Assembly: GCA_007449985.2 (NCBI GenBank)
Contig: VIIQ02000120.1
Span: 62,001-126,000 of the forward strand
Length of the DNA: 64,000 bases
Reading direction: 5' to 3'
Origin: Desmodesmus armatus
Lineage: Eukaryota > Chlorophyta > Chlorophyceae > Sphaeropleales > Scenedesmaceae
The translations under genes were made by a program, and so were the position numbers. The notes under the pieces were generated by a model that was not told the origin of the DNA, ran no database searches, and worked only from the letters and a program-made list of their open reading frames with translations. Below are positions 22,285 to 60,294 of the stretch, piece by piece (position 1 is the stretch's first letter; every line of letters begins with the position of its first letter).

Positions 22285-22298
22285 AGTATTTACTACCA

Positions 22299-28400: not shown

Positions 28401-31400
28401 TGCCCAGGTGCAAGTGAGTGTGTGTGTGGGGGGGGGGGGTCAGTTTTGAGGCAGTGACTGACAATTGGCTCCTTGACAAGATTGGGTGTTTGTTGCTGTT
28501 GGGCTTCCAATCCGTGCGTTTGACACTGCTTTTTCTTTTATCTGCCGGCTGTGTCTGCTGCTGCTGTGTTGGGGTCTACCGCAGATTGTGTTTGGCAGTC
28601 CTGTGTGGGTGGGCAAGCCTGAGGACACCCAGAAGAGAAGCCCCCCCCCCTGCCTGCTGAGCTGGAGGGTGTGGTGCTGCATGACGGGCCACCTGACTAC
28701 AGCTATGGGGCAGGTGAGACAAGAGATCCCATTGATGTGTGGGAATGTTGATGTGAAAGATGCTCTTGTGGGTGTGTGGTTGTGCACAGGCGCCCACACT
28801 CAACACCAATCCAAAATCATTAAGATTTTCTGTTTTTTTTGTGTGGTTGTGCATACTGAGGGTGTGGTGCTGCACGAGGGCCCACCTGACTACAGCTATG
28901 GGGCAGGTGGGCATGCTGCGCTGTGCTGTGCTGTGCTGTGCGTGTGGGGGGGGGGGATATTTTGTTGTGGGTGTAACAGAGGGTGTTGTGCTACATGACG
29001 GGCCACCAGACTACAGCTATAGAGCAGGTGAGCCATAAGCAAGAGGTGCATGTGTGAAATCGTTGGCTTGAGTGTGTGCGTGTGTGCAGGTGTACATACC
29101 ATGAACCCAAACCAGTAGCATTTTCTGTGTTTGTTTTGTGAAGAGTGCGTGGTTGTGAAAACTGAGGGTGAGGTGCTGCTTGATGCGCCACCTGACTACA
29201 GCCAGGGGTTGTGTAATGTTTGAATACATTGAGTGGAATTCTTTTGCTTCAGGAGTTGCACCATTTTGGATGTCCGAGTTGTGGGGTTGTGCTCGAATGG
29301 CTGTGTATGCGGTGGTGCTGGAAGAGTTATGCTGCCTGAGAAAGGGGTTGCAGCATGATTGGACCCCAGAGCGCAGCACGAAGCAGGCGGGGCAATGCAC
29401 TGGGCTCTTCACTTGTGCTCCTCGACATGTCATGAGCCGTCCTCATAGGACGCGAGGCTAATGGAGGAAATTCTATCGCGTAACTACACCAAGGGGGTGT
29501 GTAGGTAGATTTAATTCAATTTTGATTTTAACATGCAGAGGTGCACAGCTGTAGCGCCCAGTGTGTTGCCCCACCTGCCTCATGCTGCGCTCTGGGGCCG
29601 CTTCAGGCGGATGCCCCCATTGTGGTGTGCTGTGCTGTGCTGTGCTGTGGGATAGCTGTGCATGCAGTGTGATGCAAGGCGAATACCATGTGCCTTGATG
29701 TCTCCTGTGGTACCGTGTGCTGTGTTATGCTGTGCTGTGTTGTTTCAGGTGCTAAGCCTGAACAGGAGGCAGCAGCAGGGGGCACCCCAGGCCCCTCACA
29801 AGCAGCAGCAGCAGCAGGTGTTGATGATGGTGGTGATGTTGACATGCTGGACCTCACACAGGTGGGTGGCACAGCGGGGGGGGGGGGGTATAAGGCAGAA
29901 ATAGCATACACTGACATATCATACAGCAGCATAGCATACATCAACATAGCTAGGGGTCGGGCTGTCACAGCTTGGGCCCTTTCTATTCTCTGGGTGCATA
30001 CTTCACAGTGACCCCCACCCCCCACATCATACACCCACCCCTCAAACTTTGACCCCAAGAGGTTGCCCCTCAGTGACAGCCAGGGTCCGAGGTTCTAAGA
30101 CACATAAACAACACTTTGTTGCTGACCCCCCCATCCCACCCACACGCCTTCTCATTCCTGTGCTCATCCCCCGCATCAGGCCACGCAAGTCACCCCTGCG
30201 GGTGACAGTCAGGTGCCCCCGGGTCTGAGATCCGCCGCTCATCACGCGCAGCAGCAACCAAGCGGCGGAGCTACAAGGACGATATGGACGGTGATGGTGA
30301 GTACCCTTTGACAAAAACTTGTGACAGGGCTTGTTACAGGGCTTTGGGGTAGAGGTGCTGGTTGTCTTGTAACATGGCCCTCCAACCTGCCAACCAAGCA
30401 GCGTAGCTACAAGGACGACTTGGATGGTGACGGTGAGAACACCTCGGTGCCACCTTGTTTCAGTGCTTATTTTGGGGGATAATGGGGAAGCTTTTGATCC
30501 CAAACATGGCCTCATCTCAACTTGGTCTGGAACATGATGGCGATGGTGATGCTGAGGGCAGCAGCGGGCAGCACAAACATAAAGCGACCTCAGCCCTGCC
30601 TCCCCCCCCCCCTCACACCCATGTGTTGGTGCCGTGCCCCCTTGCCACTTGCACCAACAGGCGGCCTGAATGATCATGAGGTTGATGGAGAGGGAGGCAG
30701 CAGTGGAAAGTGCGGCAGATGCACTCACAGCCCTTGTACGGGCCCCCAAACTCCACCCAACCCCCCACCCTAACCCCATCAATGTCCTGCTTCCATCTCT
30801 CCATTCACTAACAGGCGGGCTGGAAGATGATGGCGATGGTGATGGTGAGGGAGGCAGCAGCGGGCAGCGCAGCAGAAAGCGGCGGCGGCGCCGCAGCAGC
30901 AGCGATGGCAGCAATGGCTCCGGTGACGACAGCAGCAGCAGCAGTGGCGGCAGCAGCGGTGACGACGGCGAGGAGGCAGCGGCGAGCAGCCGGGGTGCTT
31001 CTCGCCCTGCTTCTGCTGCTGCTGCTGCTGCTGCTGGGGGTGCTGGTAGTAAGGGTGGCAGGGTTGGTGGCAGGGCAACATCGCAGCAGGTTGTACTGCC
31101 GAGGCAGCCTGGCTATGTTCCTGCTGCTACTGGGGCCTTTGGCCGGCCCAAATCAGCAGCAGCAGCAGCAGCAGGAGGGGCGGCGGCTGCAGCGGCAGCG
31201 AATGGGGAGCCGGGTGCTGACAAGACCGACACCAAGCCAGTCGTCGTCAAGTGAGTAATGGGTGAAGTGGACAGGGGGGGGGGGGGGGCGAGGGGTGGGG
31301 GGTGTCGACAGAGAGACTGCATGCGTGCACATGCATGCTGGCTAGCAGTCATCCGACAAGGATAGTCAAACAATGACGCTAGTACGGAAACCCAGTGTGT

Positions 31401-32072
31401 GTGTGTGTGTTGGGGGGGGGGGGGATATGACGGGTGGAGGAATGGCAAGGAGGGGGTGGTGGGTGGGTGGGAGGGGTGGTGGCGCCATGGCAGTCAAAGA
31501 GACAGGTATGTGTGTGGCTGAAGGAAGGAGAGATGGGGGCTGCAGCAGTAGCAGTGGCAGCAAACAGGCAGCAGGGTGTTGGCAGGACTGAGAGCAAGCC
31601 AGTCGCTGTCAAGTGAGTACAGGAAGTGGCACCACGTCACCAGGGACGATATGACTATGATATGGCTGACTATGAGTTGGGTGTATGTGCTCCTTGTTGA
31701 TGCGTAGCCCCTGTTGCTGCTCCTGATTACTCTGCGGGCACGCCAGCCACCAAGTTTTGACTGTGTTGGAGAGGGGCAGGAGCTTGACAGTGACATGAGC
31801 AGTTGGCTTGCAGGTTTGACCGTTTTAACCTTTTTGACCCAGGTTCGATGTTTGACCCAGGTTTGACCTGGGTCTGGTGAGTAGTGCTGGTGTGGACCAA
31901 GGGACAGTCAACATACTGTTGCATGCCAATGCCGTTGCCCCTCACTTCTTTTGCCCCTCATTGCTGCTGCAGGAAAGCCCCAGCCACTATCAAACCCCAG
32001 CAGAAGCCGCCAGCAGCACCAAAACCACGGCCGAAGAAAGCAGCAGCATCGGACGATGACAAGGACTTTGAG

Positions 32073-32104
<32 letters not shown>

Positions 32105-32126
32105 TGGTGGGGGCAGTGACAGCGAG

Positions 32127-32157
<31 letters not shown>

Positions 32158-32571
32158 GGCGTGGCAGGCAGGCGCGGGCAGCAGCGGCCAAGAAGCGGAG
32201 CTATGCAGAGCTGGAGGGGAGTGATGATGGTGGTGGGGGCAGTCAGCCATCAAGTGAGTGAGCTGAATGCAGGGTGCTGACTCAAGTGTGCTGAGCTGGG
32301 GGGGGGGGGGGATGATGTGCGGTGGTGGGTGGTGTGGTGGGTGGGTGGGTGGGTGGGGGCAGTCAACCATTAAGTGAGTGAGCCGAATGCAGGGTGCTCA
32401 CCTGGAGGGGTTTTCCTGCTGCACTGCAAATGTGCCCATGCAACCTTCCGTCCTCCTTGCAAACCTGCTGCACCCCCCCCCCCCCCACTGCTTGCCTACT
32501 AGGATAGTATCCTTTCCCTTCCACCCTCAATCCCACTGCTCTGCGCTCTGCCTGCTGCACCCCACTGGGTA

Positions 32572-32602
<31 letters not shown>

Positions 32603-33389
32603 GCGCAGGGTCTGACAGTGAGGACAATGCACCCATTGTAAAGCGCTGCTGTTACCCCCCCTCCCCCCGCCGCCGCCTACTAGTTTCACTGATACGCCCC
32701 TTCCCTGCTAACGCCGTTGCTCTGCGCTTGCCTGCTGCACCCCCACTGCTCTGCGCTCTACCTGTTGCTCAAAAAACCGCTGCTCTGCGCTCTGCCCCCC
32801 CCCCCCCACGCTGCTGTTGATATTTCCTCCACCCCTGCAGGCTCTGACAGTGAGGACACTGCACCTACTGTAAAGCGCTGCTATCCCCCCCCCCCCCCCC
32901 CGGCCGCCTACTACCTGCTGGACCCCCACTGCTCTGCGCTCTACCTGTTGCTCAACCCTGCTGCTCTGCGCTTTACCTGTTGCTCAACCCTGCTGCTCTG
33001 CGCTCTACCTGTTGCTCAACCCTGCTGCTCTGCGCCCCCCCCCCTCCCACGTCAATGTCACCCGCCTTCCCTGCTTAACCCCACTGCTCTGCCTGCTGCC
33101 TGCTGCACCCCACTGCTGCTGTGACTCTCTTCACTCCCGCAGGCTCTGACAGTGAAGATGATGCTCCCATTGCAAAGCGCAGCAAGCCAGCAGCAGCTGC
33201 AGCAGCAGCAACAGCAAGGGGCGGCCCCAAGCAGGCGAAGGCACCCCCCAGCAGCAGCAAGCAGAAGCCCCCAGCTGCGAAAAAGCAGCGCGCTCCTGCT
33301 GCTGCTGCTGATAGCGATGACGTAATGATGATCAGCAGTGACTCGGATGGCGAGCCGCCAGCAGCAGCACGCAAACGGCCAGCCGCCGC

Positions 33390-33435
<46 letters not shown>

Positions 33436-34136
33436 AAGAAGCAGGCTGGGAGGAAGGCAAAGGCTGTCAGTGAAGAGGAGGAGGACGTGAGTAAATAGCA
33501 GGTGGCAGGTTTGTGTGGGTGTAGGCTCGGCTGTGATGCACGTGGCTGCTGCACAGCCCAAAACGTCAACCGTACAGTACAGAACAGCACAGTATACTAT
33601 GGTAAAGTATAGTACGAAACAACACGGTATTGTTTGGAATTACCGTGATATGGTGAGTGACGGAGACGGATACCACAGATGCCACAGCCGAGGCAGCCAA
33701 ACTGTGCGACCCCCCCTCCTACTGAAGCTTGCTGAATCCCCCCCCCCCCCCCCCCCGCCCTTTCTGTTCCTGTAGGTCATCTGCCTAGACAGTGACATCG
33801 AGGGATTGCAATCACCTTGCTCATTCCCCCCCCCCCCGCCCCCGCCTTTCTGTCCCTGCAGGTCATCTGCCTAGACAGTGACATCGAGGGTGGCGGCAGC
33901 CCAGCAGCCCCTAAACCCCGCAGTAGGGCCACGCCCGGCCGCCGAGCAGCAGCAGCAGCAGCAGCAGCGCGGTATAAGGAGGTTGATGAGTCATCAGCAG
34001 GGGAGGGTGAGAGTGATGGGGCAGCATCAGAGGGGGAGGAGGAGGAGGAGGAGGAGTCAGGGGGTGGAGGCAGCAGTGGTGGGGAAGGCAGTGGGGAGGG
34101 GACTCGGATTATGATGCTGACGATGACGATGACTGA
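25435..34136 (+). CDS. RHL1: RHL1-type DNA-binding subunit of topoisomerase VI (12 exons)
   Basis: Coding exons: 25435-25536, 26000-26051, 26784-26841, 27301-27352, 28094-28264, 28585-28713, 29749-29861, 30180-30296, 30815-31250, 31973-32253, 33143-33486, 33862-34136. Phases agree if one base is restored in each of three homopolymers (C run 28641-28650, C run 30216-30220, G run 34098-34101), giving 710 residues. Residues ~60-185 match the conserved RHL1 core: VRKNRYLMLFSF, LDSPNPVFYLNFPTGRLKFS, GTLLFPANKYMVLRL, EDVFENIIVFGSPVWVG. In plants RHL1 works with BIN4 in the nuclear topoisomerase VI complex needed for endoreduplication. The C-terminal 480 residues are low-complexity: basic patches (RKRRRRRSSS), poly-Ala from CAG/GCT repeats, acidic SDSE/SDSD motifs and a DSDYDADDDDD end. 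That tail is longer than I would expect in plant RHL1. Assignment is from motif memory only. Confidence 0.82.
27714..28020. repeat. C-rich satellite (CACCCCTCC / CCATTCCCATT units)
   Basis: About 300 bp of intron 4 of RHL1 is built from short interchangeable units such as CCACCCCTCC and CCCCATCCCATTC. Long shadow ORFs on both strands (His/Pro/Ser on plus, Gly/Trp on minus) are artefacts of this composition. It ends about 70 bp before the exon 5 acceptor. Confidence 0.9.
28857..29215 (+). repeat. Three echoes of the 3' end of RHL1 exon 6
   Basis: The last ~50 bp of exon 6 (GAGGGTGTGGTGCTGCATGA through CTATGGGGCAG and GTGAG) recur at about 28857, 28979 and 29162 with increasing divergence. The first two keep the GTGGG/GTGAG splice donor; the last has lost it. 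G runs lie between copies. Confidence 0.85.
30395..30720 (+). repeat. Echoes of RHL1 exon 8 end and exon 9 start
   Basis: AGCTACAAGGACGA, GGATGGTGACGGTGAG at 30404-30436 copies the end of exon 8 with its donor. Segments at about 30530-30585 and 30660-30705 (CTGGAACATGATGGCGATGG; GGCCTGAATGATCATGAGG) copy the start of exon 9, the second with its CAACAG acceptor. Confidence 0.75.
31560..31620 (+). repeat. Echo of the 3' end of RHL1 exon 9
   Basis: GCAAGCCAGTCGCTGTCAAG followed by TGAGTA copies the end of exon 9 at 31233-31256 (CAAGCCAGTCGTCGTCAAG, GTGAGT donor). Confidence 0.75.
32604..32885 (+). repeat. Two echoes of the 5' end of RHL1 exon 11
   Basis: GTCTGACAGTGAGGACAATG (32609) and CTCTGACAGTGAGGACACTG (32842), each after a CAG acceptor and followed by a GTAAAGCGCTGCT segment, copy the start of exon 11 at 33143 (CTCTGACAGTGAAGATGATG). 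C runs precede each copy. A CTGCTCTGCGCTCTACCTG repeat fills the spacer up to 33030. Confidence 0.85.
33766..33806 (+). repeat. Echo of the 5' end of RHL1 exon 12
   Basis: GTCATCTGCCTAGACAGTGA then CATCGAGGG after a CTGTAG acceptor is identical to the first 29 bases of exon 12 at 33862. The upstream C-rich acceptor tract is copied as well. Confidence 0.9.
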
Positions 34137-34995: not shown

Positions 34996-37900
34996 ATGCA
35001 GCCCAACGGGGGTCAGCCCCCAATTTCATCTGCACCAGCAGCTGATCACGCTGGAACAGCTGCGCCTGGTCACCAGCCGACCGCACCGCAGGCCGCGGGG
35101 ATTGCGCAAGTGACAACAGCAGCATCTGGGGCCTACAGCAGCGGCAGCAAGGCTCCGGGGGCACCAGCAGTCCCTAGCCTCCCGCTGCAGAATGTGACTA
35201 ACCAGCAGCAGGGCAGCACTGGGGGGTATGGAGGCATGCCGCCCCCACCACCTCGCAGGATGTCGGACGGGGGCAGTGGAGGAGGTGAGGAGGGAAGCAG
35301 GGGGTCAGCGGGGGTGCTTGGGGGGGGGGGGCACTGGGTATGTGTCCAGTGCCGGAGGGTGGTGGGGGGGTGGGTGGGTGGGGGGTGGGTGGGTGGGTGG
35401 GTGGGTGGGGGGTTTGATGGGGGGGGGGGGGGGAGTGTTCCTGCATGGCATCCAATACCATACAGGAACCCCGTCTCCTCTGTTGCATTGTGGGCCCTTG
35501 TTTCCGAAGTCGGACGCGGGCAGTGCAGCAGGTGAGCGGGTGAGCAGGGGGGGGGGGGGGGGGGGTCCTCAGTGTCCAGTGCAGGACGGGGTGGGTGGGT
35601 GTGTGGTGTGTGTGTGTGGGGGGGGGGGGGGAGGAGGGGGGGTGAACAACACTTGCTCCTGCATGGCATCTGCTTTCTCAGAATTGAACAACAAGGGTCC
35701 ACAATGCAGTGCAGGGGGTGAGGAGGCGAGCAGGGAAGTTGCAAAGGGGGTTTGGAACACTCTGTTAGCGTCCAGTTTGAAGGGGGATACTTGTTTCTGC
35801 GTGGCATCTGCTGTGTCGACTTTGAACAAGCAATTGTCAACGATGCAACTTGGTTCTGCAAGCAACTTTGTTGGTCAACATCGATTAATAAGAGTCAACG
35901 TTGCAGCTCAACTCCCACCCTAACCCCACCCCCACCCAATCCAGCAACCCTGCAACTGCTGCTGCTTCTGCTGCCTAAAGTGCACATGTATTCCCTCAAA
36001 CAATGCACCTACTGCTCAAGTGCCACCCTAATCCCATCCCCGTCCAACCGATCACCCTGCAACTGTTGCTGCTGCTGCTGCTGCTGCTGTCGCTGTCAAT
36101 GCACAGGTGTTGCAACAGACAAGGTGGCTGCTCCTCCACCCCAGCTGCCCCGGCTGAACGTGGTCAGTCCTCGTGACCTTGACAGGACCTCACAGCAGCA
36201 GCAGGTGACAGCCACACCCCGCAGTGTGTTCACATTTGCAACAGCGGACCTGTCAGATGAGGACGAAGGGGACAATGATGAAGACGAGGGACAGAGTGGT
36301 AAGCAGTTGGCCAAAGTACAAGTCATGTCCTTTGTGTGTGTGGGGGGGGGGGGGTCCTGGTTGAGGGGGGGGGGGGGGGCGGATGGCTGGTGGCTGCCAC
36401 GCCCCGCAGTGTGTTCACAATCGCAACAGCGGACCTGTCAGATGAGGATGAAGGCGGGGATGACAAAGACGAGGGGCAGGCAGGTGGGTGGTATGTCAAT
36501 TTCTGATTGCATTTGTGTGTGGGGGGAGTGGGGTGGGGGGAGGGATTGTGTGGTTGTGGGGCGGGGGGGCGCCCCGCAGTGTGTTCACATTTGCAACAGC
36601 GGACCTGTCAGATGAGGATGAAGGGGACAATGACGAAGACGAGGGGCAGAGTGGTAAGTATTTGGCCAAAGTACAAGTTGCATCCTGGTGGGGCGGCAGT
36701 CGGGTGGTGGCTGCCACGCCCCGCAGTGTGCTGTAATTTGCCACAGCAGAGCTGTCAGGAGAAAGGGGGGGATGATGATGATGGGCAGAGTGGTGGGTGA
36801 AACCTGCACACGACTTATGTCCCGCCCCTCCCCCCTCAGCAGTGATTGGCAAAATTGCACGCTCACACTGTGTTGACCACCCCGCCCGACACCAAACACC
36901 CGCCACCCCCACCCTCACCCCCCCCCCCCCCGGCCCCTTCCCTTCTAACCCCCATCTACTGAATCAACAGGGTTTGGCAAGCGGCGCATCCAGCGATAGC
37001 AGAAGATTATTGCAGCACAGAATGCCGCCCTGGCAGCCCACCAGGCCCTAATGGCGTCAGAAGGAAAACTACATGCACGCACACACTGTGTTGACCACCC
37101 CTCCCGGACACCTATCACCCCCCCCCTCCCCTTCTCCTCTACCACACTTTCCTACATCCATAGGCTTTGGCAAGCGTCGCATCAAGCGCACCCTCACCCG
37201 CCTGCAGCGGCAGCAGAAGATCATAGCAGCACAGAACGCCGCCCTGGCAGCACACCAGGCTCTCATGGCTGCAGAAGGAAAACCGCATGCACGCAGACAC
37301 TGTGTTGACCACCCCTCCCCGACACCTAACACCCCCCCACACACACACACACACACAAACACACACCCTCACCCCCCCCCCTTTTGGGTCCACCCTCTGA
37401 ATCAACAGGCTTTGGCAAGCGCCGGATCAAGCGCACCCTCACCCGCCTGCAGCGGCAACAGAAGATCATTGCAGCACAAAACGCGGCCCTGGCAGCCCAC
37501 CAGGCCCTCATGGCTGCAGAGGGAACCCCCTATGCAAGCCCACAGGGCAGCCCAAGAGCCGGCGATGCAGCAGCAGCAGCAGCAGCAAGCTCAGGCGGCG
37601 GCGCTGTTGGTGTAACTAGTGACACACAGCAGCAGCAGCGGCCGAGCTCCAGTGGCAGCAATGGCCAGCCTGGCAGCAGTACGCCGCCCTCGGCGCAAGC
37701 AAACTCCAGCGGCGGCGGCGGTTTCGGCGGGAAAGATGTGGAGATGGTGCCGCCGGGGGCTGGCGGGGGTGTTTTTGGCGGGAACATGAAGAGCCCCAGA
37801 ATGTGTTTGCTGCTGCTGCGCTGGCAGCGACGGCTGCTGCCAAGACTGCTGCTGTTGTGAAGGACCCTAGGAAGCAGCAGCAGGAGCTGGATGCAGAACT

Positions 37901-40900
37901 GGCAGTGCTGCAGGAACTCATGGTGGGTACTACCTTGGGGGTGGGGGGGGGGGGGGGCGCCCGTGGTGTGTGAGAGGAATGGGTTGGGGGAGGGGGGGGG
38001 GGCTGACCCTTCTGCACAGCTGCAGGCTGAACTGGCAATGCTGTAAGAACGCATGGTGGGTGCTACCTTTGGGGGGGGGGGGAGGAGAAAGAGAGGGACA
38101 TGGTGTGTGAGAGGGAGGGGTGGGGGGGGGAGGGGGGTGATCCTTCTGCACAGCTGGAGGCTGAACTAGCAGCACTGCAGGAGCTCATGGTGGGTACTGC
38201 CTGGTGGGGTGATGATGCGGGGTGGGGGGGGGGGGGGCTTGACTCTACACATGCAGGGGGACAGTGTGCAGGGTGGCGATATCTACATGCGCACGCCTGC
38301 TTTGACAAATGCATGTGCTTGCTGCAGGAACTTGACCACATAAATGTGGCTGCCCATTGCACCACATCAGGGGAAGGCTGTGTGTCGAACCGTGGCATCT
38401 GGGGTGTTTCTTTCACTGCAGACGTCACGCTGTGAAAAGAAACACCCCAGATGCCGTGCTTCAACACACAGCCTTCCCCTGATGCGGTGCAAGGGGCACT
38501 GCAGCAATCCAATGGCATCACGTGGACACATGACACCACGTTCCATTGGCTGCTCCGCTATGCGCCCTCATGCTTGCAGGACTGCCCTCCAGTCGACCTG
38601 TTGATACAGACGTCAGGGGAGACTGTGAGCAGAACGTGGTTGCTGAATGTCAAATTGCCCACCTGTATAACCAACATTGCGCTGCCCCCCCCCCCCCCTC
38701 CGCGCGCGCCCACCACCACTCCACTTGTGCAGGGGGACAGTGTGCAGGGCGCTGACAGCCACAAGCGCATGCCCTGGTTTATAATACACAACTCACTCAT
38801 TGCTTCAAAAGACCCATGATTTACTCTCTGCTTTAGTGCTGCACCTGCAGGGCGACAGTGTGCAGTGTGCTGACATCTACAAGCCCATGCCCTGGTTTGA
38901 ACAAGAGTGAGATGAAGCTGTACAAACACCACGAGTGTGTTAACGATTCCCTCCCCCACGCATGCCCTGGTTTGACAAACGCATGTAATTCACCTGTACA
39001 AACACCAGTGCACTGTCCGACACCCCCCCCCCTCCACCCCCCACCCACCCCCCTTGTTTACAGGGTGACAGTGTGCAGGGTGCAGACATCTACAAGCGCA
39101 TGCCCTGGTTTGACAAGAGTGAGATGAAGCTGTACACAGCAGGATTCATCCTCGTCCTGATCTTCATGCCTATCGTGTTTGCTGGCCTGGCGGCAGCCAG
39201 CAACAACATGCAGCTGCCACAGATCTACAGGTGGGTATCCGTTTTCTTAGTTTTTCTTTATTTAATTACTTTTTATTGTTATTTTCTTATTTTTTCTTCT
39301 TATTTGTTCCTACTTTTAATTATTATTTTCTAATTTTTTTTTAATATTTGGAGGAAGGTTCACCTCATGTTGTGCAGTAGAGTGCTGGCGGCGCACACAT
39401 GTCCTGCTGGTCGTCATGATACCTATCCAATGCAACTACTGTGTTTGGTTATTCTGATTGACAAGGCGGCTGCTCACCAACCTTCGTAGGTGGGAGGGTG
39501 GAAGGACATGTGTCCTGTGTGGAGACAGTAGCTGCTCTATCCTGGTTACTCCAATGAGTTGTAAGAGGTATTTGTCTCGTATGAGATGGGTGTCCAGGCT
39601 GTCTGGTACCACTGCTGCCATTGCATGTGCACGATCCAGCCTGTATGTGTGAGAGCCAGGTGGATTGATGTACAACGCGGTAGTTGTACAACTCCGTCGT
39701 ATCAGAACTACCAAGTTGTACAACTACCGAGTTGGAAATCAATCCACCTGGCACTCACACACACAGGCTGGATCGTCCATCAATATGCAGAGAGGCAGCC
39801 TACGCTCACTGCCTGCATGCGTGACACAGGCACTCAGACCCCCACAACAACTATGTGTCTGTGTGCGTGTGTGTGTGGGGGGGGGCATGTGTGCGCGTAC
39901 GGCGGTGCCCGCGTATGTTAGAACGTTACTGTGTGTTGACACTTGTGATACGAAGAAGACATGTATGCGATCGTAACACACTCTACATCACCCTGCAAGA
40001 GTGATTGCTCAAAGAAAGGCCCTGTCGTTGATGGCGCAGGAGAGTGCATGTGTGTTACTGCCCGACAATCTGAGGCTCCCGCTTGCCTGCCCACCTTGTT
40101 CTACCCTGCCAGGGTGTTGCTCTACTTCGGCGGCTGGCCCTTCATCTGGTTTGTGGTCAACGTGTTTGTGTGGGTGCTCATGATACAGAGTGAGAGATAC
40201 TACTACAAGTGAGTGACTAGGGGGTGAACATATGCTTCTCACACTTCCTGAGCACTACGTGACAGGCGTAATGGGGGCCTACACAACGCATGTGACATGC
40301 TAGGCTGATCATCAGCCTCAGGTTGATGCAGCTGGCCAAGTACATCAGGACAGTGAAGCAAGACTGAGCCTATCAAATTGTCCGAGAGGCTTGTGAGGGA
40401 CCACTTGAGACCAGGAATGCAGGCACGCACATCTACTCATGTGGGCAACCCACACCCAACCACCAACCCACACAACCCACACTTTGCGCTCCCCCGCCTC
40501 CCTCCCAGGCAAGCCCTTTGCTACCACGGCAAGCTGAGGCGTGCCATTACATTCCTGCTGTGGATGGCGGTGGTGAGCTGGGTAACTGTGCTGCATGGGG
40601 GGAGAATCCGTAGGGAGCTTTTGGGGTAAACCCTCAGGGGTGGGGGAGGGGGTAGGGGGGGGGGGAGACAACAGAGTTTACCCCTGGACATTGGGCGGGG
40701 GGGGGGGGGGGGGGTGGCAGGGGATCAGTGGGGAGGGGGTATGGGTAGGGCAGAAGGCAGCAGGGTTGCTTGTCTGTGCTCCCTCAGACTCCTGCTGTAA
40801 ATGGCGGTGGTGAGCCAGCAAGTGTTCTGCATGGGGGGCGGGAAGCATGGGGGATGAGGGGTGGAGTGATTTGGGGCATGTGGTGGTGGTGGGGGGGGGG

Positions 40901-41071
40901 GGGGGGGGCACAAAGAACTTACTTGGAATTGAATTGCTTGCTGAGTGGTGCTGTTGACATGCCTCTGGTGGTAGTCCCAGTCACTGCTGAATATGCTGAA
41001 CGGGATTGCTTACATTCAGTGTCATGGCACTTTATGCAGTCACTGACCCTGCACTGTGGGACTGCTCACAC

Positions 41072-41140
<69 letters not shown>

Positions 41141-44100
41141 CCCCAGCTGCTGATTTGGTTCCATGCCTGTGCCTGGATCATTCCATGTGATGACAAACCT
41201 GGATCAAAGTGCAGATACAACCTGGTGAGTCAACCACAGTCCTTGGTAGCCTTGGTTGAATTGATGCCTTGTATGGCCTTACTATTCTGGCAGTCTAGGT
41301 TATTTTGACCCACGCTGCTCTCCACCTGGCCTGCACTAGCCGGCACCCCCCTTGGTATACTTAGCATCTACCCTTACTCATAGTAGTACGTAGCCCCCTA
41401 GCTAGTCCACAACACCAAAACACAATCGCTCTGTTTCACCAACTTTGTGTTGACCATACATCCAATGTGTGGACAATACCCGACGACCATTGTTACTGTT
41501 GCTGTTGCTGTTACTCTTATATATGGGTCAGGCTGAACATGGGTGCACCCCATAGGGAGCCAACGAGGCTCATGGGGCAACCGCATCATAGAACGCATCT
41601 GAATAGACATTGTAGTACTCATCATTTACCAATACCACTACCAATATTGCAGGGGGTTTAACCCTCTTCCCGGTATTTGACACCCCCCCCCCCCCCCCCC
41701 CGTGCAGGTCCACAATAGCAGTCAGCTGGCTCAGACACCACACTCATAACTAGCCTAGATGGATATTGACCCACGATGCTGTCCACTTGGCCTAATACAC
41801 AATACAGTAGCGCAAAGCGGCCTGGTTCATCACAATTCAAACCTGTGACACACAGTGTGGCTTGAAAATGCACGGTCATTTGTGTTGCAACAGATGTTTC
41901 TCACACACACACCCATGCAGGTCCACAACAGCAGTCAGTTGCCTCAGACAGTGTGGAGGATCAGCCTCTGTGGCTTCCTATTCTCCATCGCTCTGTTTGC
42001 AACAACACTGCTGGGGCGCATGCTGGGACGACACTTCTACAACACGGCACACTTCAACAAGGTGGGTGTGCCACTGCACACTTCAACAAGGTGTCTGTGT
42101 GTGGGGGGGGGGTTGGGGAGCGTGGAAGGGGGGGGGGGGGGTGGGAGTGGCATTTGGACAAGCCACTTGGCATGGGAGTCAGGGCTGCCAGCACATGTGT
42201 GAGAGCAGGGGCCATTTCACCCACGTATTGAAACACAAGCTTTTGCAGCATGCACATAGCGTCATGGTTGGGACACTGCTGGGGCGCATGCTGGGGCGAC
42301 ACTTCTAATACAGGGCACACTTCAACAAGGTGGGGCCAGGCTGGGGGACAATCTCTTACTATGTAGTGCTGTTGTTTCCTTTTTGTCCTGTGCCACTTTG
42401 CCATGGCCACCCAGCAGCTCTCAGCGCAATATTCGTCTCGTTTTGCATCATTACAACCATCTCCATCGCCAACTTTGCTGCTGCTGCTGCTGCTCAGGTT
42501 GCGAGTGTGTTGTGGAAGCAGTACTGGTTGGTTCAGCTGTCACAGCCACGGTCCAAGCTGGCAGGACAGGACGCACTACTGAAGGATGATGGAGGCTCAC
42601 ACGGTGAGATCAGGAGCAGAGGGGCAAGGTTGTGGTGTGTGGGGGAGGAGGAGGAGGGGGGGGGGCATGTCCACTGCAGCTGGCCAATTTGCTTGGATCA
42701 CTCAAGTGAGACTTCTAAGAGTGTGGTATGAGGCCCACTCCCGTGGTGAGCCAGAGGGGAGCAGGGGAGGCGTGGGTGCGCTTACGCTTGGTGTCTGTAC
42801 TTTGCAATACATCGGTTTGGGCATGTACGGCCTGGACACAATGTGTGACTGAAAGCCCTGGAGTCAGTGGTGTAGTGTCCTGACACATGCTGGTGCTGCT
42901 GCTGCTGCTGCTGCTGCTGTAGGTCACAAGCTGCGTCAAAGGAAGAGCCACAAGGTGGAGCCAGAGGAGACAGGCAAGACAGGTCAGTGGAAATGTCAGA
43001 TCTGGGCGGAGGGGAGTGATACAGTCGGATTACCCCTGGGCGGTACTTTCCACAGTGCAACATGTGCCATGTGGTATGAAGGCACAGGCACTTGCTGCCG
43101 CAACTGCTGCTGCTGCTGCTGCCACCACCATTGCTGTCTTTTCCTTTGAAATAGAAAAACCAAACCCAGCAATGCTGCTGCTGCCGTCACCGTGACTGCC
43201 GCTGTTCTCACTGCTGGCGTGGGTCCTGAGGTGGCTGGCGAGCTCTGAGGAACAGGAAGATGACAACCAGCTGATGCCTCCAATGCTCCAAATCATCACT
43301 CATGTCATCGTCACTGCTGCTGCCGCTGCTGCTCCTGCTGCTACACAGGCTGGCGTGCCCTTAAGACCAAGAAGTCAGATGACCAGCTGCTGCCCACCCA
43401 CACAGCAGCAGGCAAGGACCTGATGAGGGGCAGCCCACCCCCTGTTGACATTGCGGCAGCATCAGACGACCAGGACTACAACTGGCAACAGGTACGGGGC
43501 TCAGGCCTGATGGTGTTGACAGCGGGTTAGGACTGGGGCATGTCACTGGCTAGGGCTCAGGGGTTTGGGTTTTCTGTCAGGGCCTCAAAGTTTTGCACAG
43601 GTCGAGCCTCGTGCAGCTGCTGGCAGCAGGGTTGGGATAAGCTTTGCGTGTCAGGGGCACGCTACCGCCTGTTGACATTGCGGCAGCATCAGACGACCAG
43701 CACTACAACTGGCAACAGGTACGGGGCTCAGGCCTGATGGTGTTGACAGCGGGTTAGGACTGGGGCATGTCACTGGCTAGGGCTCAGGGGTTTGGGTTTT
43801 CTGTCAGGGCCTCAAAGTTTTGCACAGGTCGAGCCTCGTGCAGCTGCTGGCAGCAGGGTTGGGATAAGCTTTGCGTGTCAGGGGCAGGCTACCGCCTGTT
43901 GACATTGCGGCAGCATCAGACGACCAGGACTACAACTGGCAACAGGTACGGGGCACAGGCCTGATGGTGTTGACAGCGGGTTAGGACTGGGGCATGTCAC
44001 TGGCTAGGGCTCAGGGGTTTGGGTTTTCTGTCAGGGCCTCAAAGTTTTGCACAGGTCGAGCCTCGTGCAGCTGCTGGCAGCAGGGTTGGGATAAGCTTTG

Positions 44101-47100
44101 CGTGTCAGGGGCAGGCTACCGCCTGTTGACATTGCGGCAGCATCAGACGACCAGGACTACAACTGGCAACAGGTACGGGGCTCAGGCCTGATGGTGTTGA
44201 CAGCGGGTTAGGACTGGGGCATGTCACTGGCTAGGGCTCAGGGGTTTGGGTTTTCTGTCAGGGCCTCAAAGTTTTGCACAGGTCGAGCCTCGTGCAGCTG
44301 CTGGCAGCAGGGTTGGGATAAGCTTTGCGTGTCAGGGGCAGGCTACCGCCTGTTGACATTGCGGCAGCATCAGACGACCAGGACTACAACTGGCAACAGG
44401 TACGGGGCTCAGGCCTGATGGTGTTGACAGCGGGTTAGGACTGGGGCATGTCACTGGCTAGGGCTCAGGGGTTTGGGTTTTCTGTCAGGGCCTCAAAGTT
44501 TTGCACAGGTCGAGCCTCGTGCAGCTGCTGGCAGCAGGGTTGGGATAAGCTTTGCGTGTCAGGGGCACGCTACCGCCTGTTGACATTGCGGCAGCATCAG
44601 ACGACCAGCACTACAACTGGCAACAGGTGCGTTGGTGCGGTTGGAAACATGGAGTCAATTGACACAAATGTCACTTTGTAGTTTTGTTTGTTTGGAGTTC
44701 CTTTGTCCCGCATGCAAGGTCAGGGTGACGCCAACCGCCGGCGCAGTGGTGGCAGCCCCCCCCCCCACCCCCACCCCCCACCCCCCACCCACCCACCCGC
44801 GCAAGCCCCGACGTATCTTATGTGGCTGCTAAAGCGTGATGTTTGATGCTTGTTACGCTCCTCCTTGTGCCGCCTGCAGGGTCAGGGTGACGTCATCCGT
44901 CGTCGCAACGGGCGGCAGCCGGAGCGGCCACCCCACCCCCCTTCCCTCACCCAATCACACCCAAAACATGACGTATGTTGCTTTGTTGGTTTTCCTTGTG
45001 CCGCATATTCAGGGTGATGTCATCTGGCATTGCTGCTGACATGATGGCATGCATGCTCCAGTTATTGGTGACTCCTAAGGCACATCAGATGTGTTTGGTG
45101 TTGCTTGTGCCACAGGGTCAGGGTGACGTCATTCGCAGGCGCAGTGGCGGCAGCGGGAGCGGCCAACCCCCACTTAAACTGGAAGCTGTTGCTGAGGGCT
45201 TTGAGGGCGGAGGTGTGGGCAGCGGCAGCTTCAGGTCTCTGTCCCTCAGCCAGGGCATGGGCCCTGATGCAACCAGCACACAGACACAGGTCTACCAGAG
45301 CAGGTGGGTGGTGGGGACGCCTGGGGGCCACTTTGGCACGAAAGCCTGGAGGGTGGGAGGGGGGGGGACAGGCAGCGGCAGCGGCCAACCCCTACCAAAG
45401 CTTGAGGCAGTGGCTGAAGGCTTTGAGGGCGGAGGTGTGGGCAGCGGCAGCTTCAGGTCCCTGTCACTGAGCCAGGGCATGGGGCCTGACAAGCTCGGCA
45501 CACAAACGCTGGTCTACCAGAGCAGGTGGGTGGTTGGGAGGCCTGAAAATTTTGGGGCCCACTTTAGCTGAAAGCTTGGGGGGTGGGGGGGGGGGGGGGA
45601 GCGGCCGCCCCCCACTCATAAGCTTGAGGCCGGCCCTGTCTGAGGGCTGTGAGGGTGTGGGTGTGGGTGGGGCCAGCTTCAGGTCCCTGTCCGTCAGCCA
45701 GGGCATGGGGCCTGATGCAGCTGCCACACAAACACAGGTGTACCAGAGCAGGTGGGTCGTGGCAGCATTGGCTGGATGTGTCTGCAACACACACCCATCG
45801 CCCCCCAGCATGCCCCCTTTAGGGCTGCAGTAGCTGCACAAGCATGCACTCTGCCATGTTACATGATAGGTGCTTCCATGTGTGATGGTATGAGTGTCTT
45901 TGTGTGTCTTTGTGTGAGGTGTCAGCTCCAGGTCACTGTCATCTTGCCTATGCCCCCCCCCCCACCGCAGGTCCCGTCTGCTCCACAAGCTGCACCGCCA
46001 GCAGGCGCCTTACCCTCAAACCCCTTTCCTCCTTCCTGCGCGACTTCGTAAGAGGCATCCGTTGCAAGCCCCGGGCCCAACTCATATCATCTCTGACCCC
46101 CCCCCCCCCCCGTCGCCATCAAAAAAACATGCAATCACAGGATGTCCCGCCTGCGCCACAAGTTGCACCGCCAGCAGGCCCCCTACTCCAGCGACCCCAG
46201 CAACCCTGGGGCCGCCGCTAGCGGAGGCAGCTGGTTCCCAACCTGGCGCTGGAAGAGCACGGGTTCAAATCTTGCCGAGGGCACCCCCTACGACTTTGGG
46301 GCAGAGGCAGAGAAGGCCCTGGAGCAGGTGCGTGCTGAACGTGCCTAAACCTCTTACTATAGACTTACTATAGAAGCTGTAAACCCTGAACGTAAACCCC
46401 AAACCCCAAGCCACTCACATCAGTTTCTCTCTCGCTTCTGGACCAGCACACTCATCTCTCACAGCCCAGCCTGGGCTCGGCGGCAGAGAACGCCACTGTG
46501 CTTCTTGAAGAAGAAGGGGTTACAGGGCGACACACGCAGCTACGCTGCAACGACACCCAGCATCGGAAGGGAACCAAAGTCATTTGCAGGACCTACAAGG
46601 CCGCTGTGCTCCTGGAAGATCTGCCACTGTTCAGAGCCTGAGGGACATCACGTGCCGCTGGTCGCGGTTGCATGCACTGTGAAAGGTGCTGTTTCTGTAG
46701 ACAGCGCCCGTGCTACTTGTTGGTGACGTGTTTGGAACCACAGCTGTGGCTACGCCCCGTAGGCTGCACAGCAACTGCACGGCATAGCCTAAGCAGTGGT
46801 TGTACGCCCCAGGTAAAAGCAACTTCATTTCCTTGCACTTGTGCTGTTCTCTTGCACAGGCTGCTGATGTGAGGCATGCTGCTCAGGAGAGTGATGAGGT
46901 GCCGGCTTGAATGCGGCGAGGCAGTGCATTTGTCAACCCGATTGCACGCAATTCTCATAACGCTGCTGCTGCTGCTGCTGCTGCTACTACTGCTGCTGCT
47001 GCTGCCTGCTACTGCTGCTGCTGCTGCTTGCCGTTGATCAGGCTGCTGATGTGAGGCATGCTGCTCAGGAGAGTGATGAGGTGCCGGCGGACCCCCTGCT

Positions 47101-50100
47101 GGACGCTGGGGTGCTCAGGGCACTCAACGTCAAGCTGGACGGCAAACTGGTGAGGCAGAAGGGGGGGTGGAGGGCTGTGCTGGGGGGGGGCAGAGGGGTG
47201 AGAGGGAAGGGGGGAGGTGAGGTTGTACATGGCTTGTGCAGTGCATGTGAGGGGGGTTGTCTCCACATGGGGTCTTCACCCCGGCCATTGATCCCACTGC
47301 CATGCTGGACGCCGGGGTGCTCAGGGCGCTCAACGTAAAGCTGGACGGCAAACTGGTGAGAGGGAGGAGAACGGGGAGGCATGTGTGTATGTTTGGGGGG
47401 GGGGGGTGCTGCGCCCACACACCGACAGCATGGACGCTGCTGAGATTTGTTACCGCCAGCTGTATTACAGGGCATGCACACGCAGATCCAAGCAACAACA
47501 GTGCCACTTGACAGTGTCGGTGTGTTTGTCCTGAGTATGACCCTGCACTGCTCCCGTAGTAGAGTGGTCAAGTCACGTTCATCAGATAGGTCTTGGGTTC
47601 GATCCATGTCTGCTGCAAGGGTGCGGCAGCACCACAGTGCGTCCGGGAACAGCTGCCGCTTGAACCGGGTGGTGCTAGGCACACCATGGGAAAAAATGCT
47701 ACTGGAATTGACGGCTGGCTTGCTGGGTGATCTCGATCGCCCTCACACCTGACCTGAGAAACTGGGGTACTACAGGCCCTTCAGGGCACCCTCATGAGCC
47801 CCTGGCTCGCTGGCAAGTGCCGAGGTTGGGACTCTGTCCCCAATTACCAATACCAATACCAATATTGCAGGGGGTTACCGTACTGTACTGTACTGTACTG
47901 TACTGTAGCCGCAATACCCTAGCATTGAGCAGAGCGCTGCACGCGTGTGCACATAAGTTTGCCTGTTTGCACCTGCGTCAGTCAACACAGAACTCACGTA
48001 GGATGGTCCCACCACATGCCTGCTCTGTGTGTCATGTCGTGCTGCAGCTTGATGCATCCCGCTTCAGCTCCGTCGAGTGGCCGCGCATCAGGGAGGGCAT
48101 TGCCATTCAGACGTATGAAGTGCTGCTGGAGAGGTGAGGTACCGTACCTCACCTCAAACCCGGGTTTTGGGATGTGGAGCGGTTGGGGTTTCTATGCGGG
48201 GCTTCAAACTCGCGGCTTTCTGACACCGCTTGACATCATCGGGTGTCAGGTCGATGTTCGGCCATGCGATGATTCGGGCAAGTGGCAGTGCAGTTGTTGT
48301 TTGGACCTTGATGGGATATTGAAGCTGACTATGCCACACTGTCTGCAACAGTGGCACGTATGCAGGTCATGCTGCAGCCTCAACCATCGTGGTCATGGCA
48401 TGACGTAAATGGCAGTAACCGGAAACAATGTTGCTCAGTGCAACTGTTAAAGCCCATCTGCATCTTGAATTTTGCTTCTGGTCTTGCTAGGTACCGTGGC
48501 TTCAAGGACGAGGAAGACAGGCAGCTCAGGCTGTTGGGCAAGCCCTAATCATAACATCAGAGCCCACCGCCCCCCCCCCCCCAACCTCCATGCCCCCCGT
48601 TGTATCCCCCGCCCCCTCCCAAGCTAGTGTGGCCATAAAGCGGCGTCTCCAACAGCTCAGTAAGTTGATATGTATGCTGTCACCATGCTGTTTGACATGT
48701 CAAACAAATTGTCACACTTACTACATCTGCAGGTACCGTGGCTCCAAGGACGAGGAAGACAGGCAGTTGAAGGCAGCCAGGCGGTTGGGCAAGGCCCTGT
48801 TCCAACACATCAAGGCCGACAACACCCGCAACTACCTCACACGCGAGGACTTCAGCCCCTTCTTTGCGGGGCTGAGGAACGAGGAGGCGGAGGCGGACGC
48901 AGCATTTTTCTTCTTCGACAAGGTGCGTGCCGGCTTGACGTTGCTGTAAGGCAATGCTTGTCGGAGGATGATGCTTTTGTCCCTGACCCTCAGCCGCCAA
49001 GCAAGTAAACTGTTGGGTGAGGGCCTCAAGGTTGAGAGTCTTATGGTTGCGTGCATGTATGGCCCTACCAACACGCATGCTTGTGTTATCAGTGAGGAGG
49101 CAGAGGCGGGCGCGGCATTCTTCTTTCTTGACAATGTTCGTGCCGACCGATGCCATTGCCTGTGAGACAGGGCTTGGTGGTGGTGGGGGGGGGGGGCATC
49201 TCCGTCAACTTGGCGCCAACATATTAATGGGGAAGAAAATGTTACACGCAGACACATTCGCCACACATCAATGGCATTGCCTGCCAGGGTTGAACCGGTT
49301 GAAACACTAAGGTGGGGAAAAACCCCGATCCCCGTCAGTGGTTTGCACCACCTACACCAGATAGTAGCCTGATTCAAAGCAAGACAGCAAAGGAGACTTC
49401 ATTGACATCCTGAGGCAACACGACAACCTTGTACAGAAGTGGGAAGCAAACAGCTAGGATCCAGCATGCAGCAGCACCAAGAAATACCCCTTGTCAGGTC
49501 AGATGCCCAAAGTCAGCCCAAGAAGGCGCGCCCGGCGCACTTTCATCTTGTACAGAGTGTATGCCAACGCAGACTGCTCTCCATGTTGAAACACTGATCG
49601 CACACATTCAGGGTCGTCCAGTACCACAGCATCAGACAGGGGGAAGGCCGGGCAAGCGGCGCGCAAATCATCGTAAACAGGGCACTCCAACAGGAAGTGC
49701 TTCAAGTCTTCCACATTACGACTAGTTCTTGTCCTTGCCAGTACAGCTTGGCGGTGGGCCAGGGTAGCATCCTCTCCACAACACACTCGACACAGGCGGT
49801 CAGCACGGGGCACAGAGACCCTTCGCTTACGTCCCTGTTCTATTTCAAGGTGGGCTGAACCAATACGCAACTGGGCAAGGTTACGCGCTACATCAAAGGG
49901 CAGGCACAACTTGATATGCGGAGGCGCATCGTCCCTTGAGAAGGGATTGAAGCCAGGATCTAGCGGGTAGACCCATGCATGATGTGTAAGCTTGTGAATG
50001 CCGATAGAAGGGGCGGAACGCGGGTCACCTTGGGTGAGACCTCGCCACCGGGCCCTGAATAGGGCAGCCAGCGCGGCCTGCACTGCAGACTCCTCCCACC

Positions 50101-54641: not shown

Positions 54642-54678
<37 letters not shown>

Positions 54679-57595: not shown

Positions 57596-57651
<56 letters not shown>

Positions 57652-60294
57652 CACTGCTGCTGCTGCAGTGCAAAGGGCTTCAGCACCGTGACCGCCTCCC
57701 TCATGTTCTTCTCATTCATGTTCAGCAACTCCGCAAAGTGAGTGGTCAACGAATAGCCAACAGCAATGTTTTTGACGTCCATTTGCCTATCCTGGGTGAT
57801 GTTGTTTCGGACTCTGTCTTCAGCTGCGTTTGATGCCGATGGTTTGGCGGGATATTGTGGATGTGCTAGACTAACCCCGCGGCAAGCGCCCCGAAGCAAA
57901 ACACCGCAATTTTCATGGCGTATGCAGGAACGTGTTCGAGGCGACGCTGTTCCTGCTCGGCGCGCACGCCTACGACGTCGGCGACATGCTAGACATCGAG
58001 GGCACCATGTACCGCGTCAGCAAGATCACGCTGCTCTATACGGTGAGGAAGCATGACCTCGCGAACACAACGTCAGCCTTGCCGTCTTGCACCAATGTAT
58101 CTTTGACTATGCAGCGAATATGCCAGCACTGTTCGTGCCTGACAAGGCGAGCTGCTTTGCGCAGAATAACTTTGAGAAGCAAGCACTGCTTGGGGGTCCA
58201 CCGCAAACCTAAGACCCCGGGGGGGGTGACGCCAAAGTTTTGGAAACCCCTCCCCCCCCCCCTCTTGATTTTACGCTGTTCGGACAAAAATCTCCACCCC
58301 CCCTCCTCCCCGTTTTAGGCTGATCATTGGTACTGCTGTCTCCCTTGCTGGCGAGCTGCTGGACCCCTCCCCCCCCCCCCCCCCTTCCGTTTTAGGCTGT
58401 TTTCGCAACTTAACCCTCCCCCCCTATCCCGTTTAGGCTTGGCGTCACCCCCCCCCCCCCCCCGGGGTCTTAGGTTTGCGGTGGGCCCCTTGTATAACTG
58501 ACTCAAGGGCGGGGCTTGCCTTTCCACTGTTCAGCCAACTGCCAGCGTCCGTTCCTGCATACATACTCTCCCGTAAAGTTTGCGCCTACTGCTGCTGCTG
58601 CTGCTGCTGCGTTCACACCCACTGCTGCCGCTGCTGCCGCAGACCCTGATCAAGAACAGTGGAGAGATCAGCCTGTACCCCAACTCCAAGCTGCTGCTGG
58701 CGCCCCTCATCAACCTGTCGAGGGGCAACTGCCTGCAGTCTGACAAGGTAGTCATCCATGTGGACACGGGAGAGGCGGGAGACACAATGTTTGAGGCACT
58801 GCAGGTGCGTGTTGGTATAACAATTTCGTGTGTTGTTTGGGGGCGGCAAGGGGGGGGGGGGAGTGTCCGAACGCAGGGTGATTTGCTTGGTGATTAGCTT
58901 TGACATCCATGTTGACAAGGGGAGGCGGGAGACACAATGTTTGAGGCACTGCAGGTGCGTGTTGGTATAACAATTTCGTGTGTTGTTTGGGGGCGGCAAG
59001 GGGGGGGGGGGGGAGTGTCCGAACGCAGGGAAGAGTTGGTGATTTGCTTTGACATCCATGTAGATACAGGAGACACCATGTTTGAGGCACTGCAGGTGCG
59101 TGGTTGTGTGCAAGGGGGGTGTGATGGGGGGAGATGGGGGGCTCGAGGGGGGGGGGGGGCTGGAAAGTTTGCCTGGACGGGTCGTTCAGTGGGTGCATTG
59201 CGTATGGGTGGGTTGATGGGTGAACAGATGGGTCCCAGTGGTGTTTTCTGTAGCCATGCAGGATGTGTGTGCTGGTAGAGGGGTAGAGGGGAAGTGTATT
59301 CCGTCAACACCATGTTTGAGGCTCTGCAGGTTCGTTTCGACACATGCTCGTGTTGCTTGGGGACCCGGACCAAGGACCACGTAGTGATCAGCACACATCT
59401 GCTGCAACAGATTACTCCCATGATTGCGGGAGACCACTTGCAACAGCTGTTGCGATGCATGCTATGGTTTTGTTCGTGTAGGGGGGGGGGGTGGACCCCT
59501 ACCGGCTGGCCACACACGCAACAGCCGAGTAAACCCGACTGCCGGGAGCCCGAGGCAAAGCCTCACACCGATGAGAGACGCCTGAATATGCAATGGATGG
59601 GCCCCTGCTGCTGCGTGTGTCCCATGGCATGCCCACACGCCACACATGACTTTTGCATGTGCCGCTAGATCAAGTGAAACCAGCACGTGCTAGTTTGAAA
59701 TGTTGCCATGCCGTGCTGTGCCGTGCTGTGCTGTACATTGCAGGCGGCCATGCAGGAGCACTTTGAGGAGCATGAGAGGCACTTCAACTCAGTCCCTGTC
59801 GTGCGCTTCACTGGCATAGTAAGTGTGACAAGTGGCCTGGCTTCTGAGGCTGTTTTGAAGCATGTACTCGCTAAGGGGGTGTTCACCCCCTAACTGCCCT
59901 GGGCTAATGCTTCAAAATTGCTCTTGACGCTTGAAGTTGCAGGGTACAAACTGCTGTAGTTTGCAGTCAGTTTGCTGTGTTTTGGGGGAGTATGTTACAT
60001 GGACATTTTCGCCAAACAACAATGGCATTGCCCACCAGGATCGAGCCAGGTGAACCTCATAAGTTGTCTCCCCTGCGGTGGTTTGCACCACCTACACCGG
60101 GTTGACCAAAGAAGGCAGAACCACCAGAATTGCAGCAAGTGCCAGCCATGCTAGGAACCTATTGTGTGCAGAGATGAGGGCAGGCAACTATACCAGTGTG
60201 GACACAAGTTTTGCTAGATGTGACGACAAGTTGGCCATCTGATTCAAGTGGGTTTGGTGTATGCTGCCAACAGTGGCGGTACCTCTAGGTGACA

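Follow-up and report, generated by a model that had tools for sequence, protein, structure and literature searches.

Local copies of exon ends in introns of the green alga Desmodesmus armatus, some differing from their exons in a coding-type manner

Introduction

What places repeated, partial copies of an exon's end in the intron beside it, usually with the splice site included? The question is raised by a stretch of 64,000 nucleotides from the green alga Desmodesmus armatus (GenBank assembly GCA_007449985.2, contig VIIQ02000120.1, positions 62,001 to 126,000; hereafter the window), which is part of contig C116 of a 115.8-Mb genome assembly in 831 contigs. An initial annotation of the window had reported such copies, which we call exon echoes, beside at least 17 exons of two plus-strand genes, RHL1 and MSL. 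Here we describe how frequent these echoes are, how they are arranged and how they have diverged, and we weigh a tentative origin in break repair against its rivals.

Copies of exon ends in adjoining introns

At distances under 2.5 kb, comparison of the window with itself, with a low-complexity filter applied, gave 64 same-strand pairs and 3 inverted ones, and shuffled sequence gave 1 near pair over the 25 chunks examined. Among 29 exons placed by hand, 18 matched an adjoining intron at score 20 or above, and 17 had a copy of their own end there (12 of 22 in MSL, 5 of 7 in RHL1); the sole match of exon 31973-32254 is a CAG-rich interior piece and not an exon end. As a null, exons were compared with the 500 bp that follow a distant exon, a target shorter than many real introns, and 0.9% of 455 such comparisons reached score 20. 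The initial count of at least 17 exons is thus borne out.

The comparison set consisted of the window and 20 other 10-kb loci taken at fixed coordinates (264 kb, 21 sequences), and predicted exons and splice borders were supplied by a gene finder self-trained on all 264 kb. The signals that it learned were a donor CAG/GTGAGT and an acceptor TGCAG/G. Of 15 MSL exons read by hand, 12 were overlapped by a call on the correct strand, 1 was assigned to the opposite strand and 2 were not called, a usable if imperfect performance. On the near side, 137 of 611 predicted splice borders (22.4%) had a same-strand copy within 1.5 kb, a rate that overstates independent events as it includes the borders of echoes that were themselves called exons. 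The corresponding rates were 0.2% of 1843 when introns were swapped between loci and 1.6% on the inverted strand. The window accounted for 47 of its 141 borders and the other loci for 90 of 470. Copies on the far side were found at a rate of 16%, with a large contribution from whole copies of short exons; for exons of at least 200 bp, near-side copies numbered 28/170 and far-side copies 11/167. These data confirm that exon-end copies in introns are real and far beyond chance. Copies with stops and frameshifts of their own, moreover, do not have the look of assembly errors.

Direction, splice sites and spacing

Downstream of predicted exons of 180-300 bp, 29 echoes repeat the 3' end, 1 repeats the 5' end and 5 are interior pieces, while upstream there were 10 copies of the 5' end, none of the 3' end, 2 full copies and 5 interior pieces. 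The rule put forward at the outset, that 3' copies lie downstream and 5' copies upstream, therefore describes exons of this length; when all exon lengths are included, 10 5'-end copies lie downstream and 16 3'-end copies upstream, mostly at exons shorter than 130 bp. Local duplication combined with the need for one complete exon forces such a direction, and no special element is needed. The splice site is usually part of the copy, as had been stated: among 111 border-reaching echoes, GT is kept in 86% of those with a donor and AG in 81% of those with an acceptor. For echoes within 700 bp the median spacing is 230 bp (middle half 186-272 bp), and spacing modulo 3 shows no frame preference (38/31/38).

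Two other parts of the initial annotation did not hold. Similarity was said to fall with distance; it does so in 33 of 55 groups, fails to in 19 and ties in 3, which is not significant (p=0.07). Nor does growth of introns through echoes find support, the median length being 227 bp for introns with echoes and 296 bp for those without (p=0.09).

Some short exons are copied whole, in arrays of 63 bp units at locus L016 and 105 bp units at L012. At L016, exon 1306-1485 is flanked upstream by four copies of roughly its first 90 bp and downstream by four of roughly its last 90 bp; the two sets meet near the same point, and an extra copy of its second half (81%) lies about 15 kb off on the same contig. 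Few exons carry both kinds of echo; in this exon and in window exon 47042-47149, the upstream and downstream echoes appear complementary.

Echoes depend on the locus

The proportion of borders with an echo ranged among loci from 0/39 (L011) to 13/19 (L016). Within the window it was 0/29 at 0-16 kb and 36/57 at 32-48 kb, and over 24 stretches the heterogeneity reached p ~1e-22, in agreement with the earlier proposal that the process is locus-dependent. The echo rate is correlated with how densely introns are set with runs of G or C (rho 0.59, p=0.002). In introns of the window and of L005-L024, G runs are concentrated in the 5' half and C runs in the 3' half, as rough mirror images. Counted by decile of intron length, runs of at least 7 number 19, 18, 14, 14, 11, 6, 8, 7, 5 and 1 for G and 0, 3, 2, 3, 5, 8, 9, 7, 8 and 19 for C; predicted internal exons hold 1 such run of either kind in 53 kb. 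A G run lies ahead of 15/50 3' echoes against 10.0 from random positions in the same intron (p=0.027), and a C run behind 10/30 5' echoes against 6.0 (p=0.04). Loci L010, L014 and L022 were omitted, by judgement, from these junction counts and from the near-pair counts below as repetitive coding loci.

Intron homology beside the copies

Where an exon end and its intron are duplicated as one unit, both introns should be as alike as the age of the copy allows. We compared 73 echoes with exon identity of at least 0.85 and at least 80 bp of comparable intron. Intron homology was kept in 47 of them, as plain tandem duplication predicts, and absent beside the other 26, whereas a simulation of equal decay expects 0.0-0.4 of 73 without homology, depending on the assumed indel rate. 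In these 26 echoes similarity ends at or near the splice site, as it does in 42273-42329 and 47300-47355 (exon identity 0.93 in both). A larger set gave detectable intron homology in 54 of 92 echoes and none in 38.

Near pairs of at least 85% identity comprised 22 that touch an exon and 3 that are noncoding; the corresponding counts were 32 and 5 at 80% or more, 14 and 1 at 90%, and 4 and 1 at 95%. Random tandem duplication of the observed sizes predicts noncoding and viable exon-touching pairs at 1.05:1, or at 0.60:1 inside genes. The counts are uncorrected for selection, and part of the exon-touching excess is to be expected because selection holds the exon copy; furthermore, one of the three noncoding pairs at 85% consists of two echoes of a single exon (38733-38780 and 38851-38924).

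Coding-type divergence

Codon counts were made on 107 of the 137 echoes, namely those that reach the border and lie within 700 bp of it. Loci L010 and L014 were dropped by judgement as repetitive coding loci, which left 102 echoes; the ratio of nonsynonymous to synonymous differences (pN/pS) was 0.25 without these loci and 0.29 with them. A dead copy beside a constrained exon is expected to give about 0.44-0.50. One estimate behind this range took its substitution pattern from only 9 noncoding pairs with 716 sites; the simulations of pN/pS and of intron decay relied on assumed patterns in its place, and the nulls of both classes described here were run without stops. The 34 echoes with a stop or frameshift had a pN/pS of 0.39 (0.29-0.50), which was matched by 26 of 300 neutral simulations. 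The 68 intact echoes, for which a dead copy would give about 0.46, had 0.19 (0.14-0.24), a value reached by none of 300, with 63% of differences at third positions. In MSL, where the frame was checked, pN/pS was 0.20 for 17 intact echoes and 0.43 for 12 broken ones, the two classes having similar synonymous divergence. An exon called in a wrong frame would end up in the broken class, and MSL therefore offers the best support for equating broken with neutral. Among changes private to whichever echo is most similar, 58 of 105 fell at third positions (p=3e-6), as did 23 of 42 for window exons alone (p=0.003).

The strongest coding-type signal came from the 15 partial, intact echoes that the gene finder did not call (pN/pS 0.12, 0.08-0.17), while whole, intact copies gave 0.18. 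A plausible complementary splice site accompanies just 5 of these 15, compared with 18 of 25 broken partial echoes, and their own use as exons therefore hardly explains them. The initial view of tandem duplication followed by decay is accordingly correct as far as local duplication of border segments at the DNA level, in only some loci, and the near-neutral broken third are concerned; the 26 of 73 echoes that lack intron homology and the 68 of 102 that differ in a coding-type manner do not fit it. Duplication from a like template fits about two thirds of the well-preserved echoes; the rest resemble a comparison of two functional gene versions, in which exons differ by synonymous changes, splice sites persist and introns bear no relation to each other.

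Echoes of RHL1 and MSL

All features in this section and the MSL and RHL1-like exons below lie on the plus strand. In the RHL1-like gene, exon 28585-28713 has 3'-end echoes at 28858-28906, 28979-29027 and 29164-29208 (identity 0.94, 0.90 and 0.87), and exon 30180-30296 has one at 30391-30430. Exon 30815-31250 is preceded by two 5'-end echoes (30524-30599, 30661-30719) and followed by a 3'-end echo (31542-31612). Two 5'-end echoes of exon 33143-33486 lie at 32611-32649 and 32841-32886, and that of exon 33862-34136, at 33776-33804, is identical over 29/29 bp.

In MSL, the 3' part of exon 36107-36298 recurs at 36386-36479 and 36572-36653, which reach the exon end, and at 36706-36781, which falls short of it and carries a stop and a frameshift. 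Upstream of exon 37409-37768, an echo of its 5' part from the very start (37164-37299) is intact, with 11/16 differences at third positions, and another from position 36 (36985-37085) contains a stop. Exon 37828-37922 has 3'-end echoes at 38018-38055 and 38152-38189. The latter, which had been suggested as an in-frame cassette exon, is indeed open, in frame and flanked by AG and GT, but its sister copy has a stop. Three 5'-end echoes of exon 39064-39230 (38257-38308, 38733-38780, 38851-38924) are joined by an interior piece at 38959-39000. Exon 41921-42061 has a 5'-end echo at 41708-41737, and its 3'-end echo at 42273-42329, cited above for its lack of intron homology, has an internal stop. 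Five 3'-end echoes of exon 43349-43491 form a 227-bp tandem array at 43653-44626 whose units are 98% alike. Exon 45116-45303 has two 5'-end echoes (44718-44774, 44880-44934) and two 3'-end echoes (45371-45525, 45588-45751), and exon 46141-46327 a 5'-end echo at 45971-46013. The 5'-end echo of exon 47042-47149 (46860-46906) is identical over 47/47 bp, corresponding to exon positions 1-47, and its upstream intron is unrelated; the 3'-end echo at 47300-47355 covers positions 53-108. Exon 48733-48922 has a 5'-end echo at 48491-48574 and a 3'-end echo at 49094-49134. Exon 55994-56082, the start of which was set by eye, has 3'-end echoes at 56172-56220, 56438-56463 and 56557-56580, with more seen by eye, and exon 58643-58804 has two at 58904-58954 and 59062-59095.

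Gene models and other repeats

The hand-built MSL model has 17 exons whose phases chain over 850 codons with zero stops: 34996-35284, 36107-36298, 37409-37768, 37828-37922, 39064-39230, 40113-40208, 40509-40572, 41147-41224, 41921-42061, 42498-42603, 42923-42982, 43349-43491, 45116-45303, 46141-46327, 47042-47149, 48048-48133 and 48733-48922. Pfam assigned no family to the 850 residues of these exons (34996..48922), and a search with residues 310-850, in which 7992 candidates were scored, found no protein homologue. Four further exons (57239-57336, 57669-57737, 57928-58042, 58643-58804) encode, once spliced, 147 residues that match PF00924 (MS_channel_2nd, E 2.4e-9); together with exons 1-17 these channel exons at 57-59 kb probably make up a single gene, MSL. 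Between exon 17 and the channel exons, long open frames occupy the minus strand at 49499-55217; they read like a putative non-long-terminal-repeat retroelement. The gene at 28585..34136, a putative RHL1, has seven exons placed from the gene finder and by reading (28585-28713, 29749-29861, 30180-30296, 30815-31250, 31973-32254, 33143-33486, 33862-34136), and a 68-residue piece of its product gave no Pfam hit. On reading, a C run at 28645-28654 in its first exon seems to shift the peptide frame and is perhaps a homopolymer error of the assembly. A cluster of long single-exon open frames on the minus strand at 16389-25185 presumably encodes F-box and leucine-rich proteins.

MSL introns also hold other repeats. 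A sequence of about 320 bp at 47525-47850 has about 40 scored copies (of 974 candidates) on various contigs, with identities of 78-99%; on C612, three copies follow one another at intervals of about 3.46 kb. The 97-bp sequence at 46507-46603 occurs at about 98% identity on many contigs, often clustered, among the 40 of 300 candidates that were scored. Long, hairpin-like inverted repeats were seen by eye at 38371-38482 and 39650-39775. No Rfam family was found over threshold within the window.

Discussion

We tentatively read the echoes as local DNA duplications that cross a splice site and were made by break repair, some of them templated on a diverged functional copy. Under such a scheme, a break would fall in an exon and one end would invade a template. 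The invading end would be extended through the remaining exon, across the splice site and on into intron sequence, with a G or C run as a frequent stopping point; the extended end, on failing to anneal with the other end, would instead be joined to it, leaving a second exon end, a splice site and some intron. The survivors would be those joints that leave one complete in-frame exon, which would yield 3'-end copies downstream and 5'-end copies upstream. A sister copy as template would give an exact tandem repeat, introns included. With a diverged homologue, in which exons pair and introns do not, the product would show coding-type differences and unrelated introns, and annealing would fail at the border because such a template lacks intron homology. 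It is conceivable, if doubtful, that each intron-unrelated echo is left over, as a fossil, from an exchange attempted between two versions of a gene, both functional but diverged, whose exons can recombine and whose introns cannot.

Several observations weigh against a repair origin with diverged templates. The partner that it calls for is hypothetical: a search with an MSL stretch found neither a second haplotype nor a paralogue, one with L012 gave as its sole match outside the locus 52 bp at 87% on C74, and further partner searches were swamped by repeats. The synonymous divergence needed, 0.2-0.3, is very high for alleles. Some intron-unrelated echoes, such as 46860-46906, are fully identical to their exon, which would not be the default outcome with a diverged template, and 47 of 73 well-preserved echoes keep the intron homology of simple tandem copies. 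Enrichment of G or C runs at echo junctions is marginal. Outside MSL and RHL1, the exon calls come from the gene finder, which labels many echoes as exons, and shorter contigs show more echoes (rho -0.49, p=0.03, 20 loci), which could hint at assembly trouble.

The main rival, and a serious one, is that tandem duplication in place was followed by retention of many copies for a while as cassette or mutually exclusive exons, which later decayed. Coding selection would then explain both why differences concentrate at third positions and why the exon part is better conserved than the intron, a splice site being lost later. This fits the overlap of 68 of 107 echoes with gene-finder exons, the low pN/pS of whole intact copies, the whole short-exon arrays of L016 and L012, and the open, AG/GT-flanked echo at 38152-38189. 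It accords poorly with the finding that the coding signal is strongest in uncalled partial echoes, which have a complementary splice site less often (5/15) than broken ones (18/25), with gaps that are nearly all frameshifts (43/47) and with spacing that lacks a frame preference. We regard this explanation as a real possibility, though a somewhat doubtful one.

Plain tandem duplication in place with neutral decay of all echoes, border copies standing out through selection on the exon copy, is unlikely. Intron homology is lost in 26 of 73 echoes where 0.0-0.4 are expected, intact echoes reject neutrality in all 300 simulations, and private changes are biased towards third positions over the whole set and in window exons alone. 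Such duplication does account for full-unit arrays (43426-44628; L008), for the 47 of 73 echoes that retain intron homology and for the broken third with near-neutral pN/pS. As a sole cause we reject it, unless introns turn over much faster than synonymous sites and mutation favours third positions.

Rather improbable, too, is an assembly chimera of two diverged haplotypes or strains, in which the contig switches partner within introns and overlapping exon ends remain. Coding-type divergence beside unrelated introns is the trace that a haplotype switch should leave, and echoes are commoner on shorter contigs. However, 34 of 102 echoes are broken by stops or frameshifts of their own, the stretch at 36-49.2 kb contains, around an unbroken 850-codon frame, 28 matches that score at least 20, and multi-copy arrays are ordered; moreover, one contig carries both echo-free and echo-rich genes, and neither an MSL stretch nor L012 yielded an uncollapsed second copy. 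Finally, footprints of intron birth by tandem duplication of AGGT-bearing exon segments, or of a mobile intron family, are very improbable, for although tandem genomic duplication is an accepted route to new introns (PMC3443670), that model puts the copied upstream exon end directly before the downstream exon whereas echoes, in the alignments printed, mostly continue with GT and intron, echo-side introns of different loci score 16 or less in 899 comparisons, and the rate at which exon ends find a match in another locus's introns is 0.2%.

No description of pervasive border echoes or of their mode of divergence was found in the literature, as judged from titles and the openings of abstracts. 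Duplication of whole exons in tandem occurs in animal genes. Echoes resemble it in being local, same-strand copies in a neighbouring intron (22.4% near against 1.6% inverted), some of them open and spliceable; in contrast, most echoes of long exons are partial, with an edge that falls within the exon, and stay on one side of it. The 52 echoes of exons of 180-300 bp comprise 2 full copies, 40 one-ended and 10 interior ones, and whole copies belong mainly to short exons. Tandem duplication of exons, in part or in whole, is of a known kind; unusual in echoes are their border-specific abundance and the way in which they diverge.

Intron gain through tandem genomic duplication, as summarized in PMC3443670, also involves a duplicated segment with a splice-site motif. 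Unlike those segments, echoes enlarge or rebuild existing introns and do not form the borders of a new one; in the alignments printed, uncalled 3'-end echoes run into further intron, mostly with GT at their border, rather than up to the downstream exon. In worm helq-1 mutants, tandem duplications that range in size from about 100 bp to 10 kb are ascribed to end-joining of failed strand-annealing intermediates (PMC8654963). The sizes, from about 100 bp, and the stretch synthesized past a break and then joined end to end recall our scheme, whereas echoes are natural, mostly diverged, focused on borders and apparently sometimes templated on diverged sequence, with no known repair defect here; most are too diverged for exact placement of their junctions. 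Introner elements are reported chiefly from fast-evolving lineages such as green algae (PMC9860276), and with them, too, duplication shapes intron content. Here, however, no dispersed echo family was seen, and echoes of an MSL stretch and of L012 match their own locus; echo-side introns at unrelated loci are not similar, although other repeats such as 47525-47850 do occupy them.

Whatever their origin, echoes will be labelled as exons by gene finders. Even if they are alternative exons, about one fifth of predicted splice borders have a spare copy nearby, which makes this alga a good natural system for the birth of exons. Should the repair origin be correct, splice borders would be hot spots of duplication because they are edges of homology, and intron divergence, gene conversion and the raw material of new exons would be linked, so that recombination history could be read from a single genome. 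If, in addition, intron-unrelated echoes are fossils of exchange, repair that overruns a splice site could not be resolved, and the exon end that it displaced would stay in place. Introns would in that case be barriers to gene conversion and at the same time keep a record of it, and echoes could serve as a map of past recombination between haplotypes or species.

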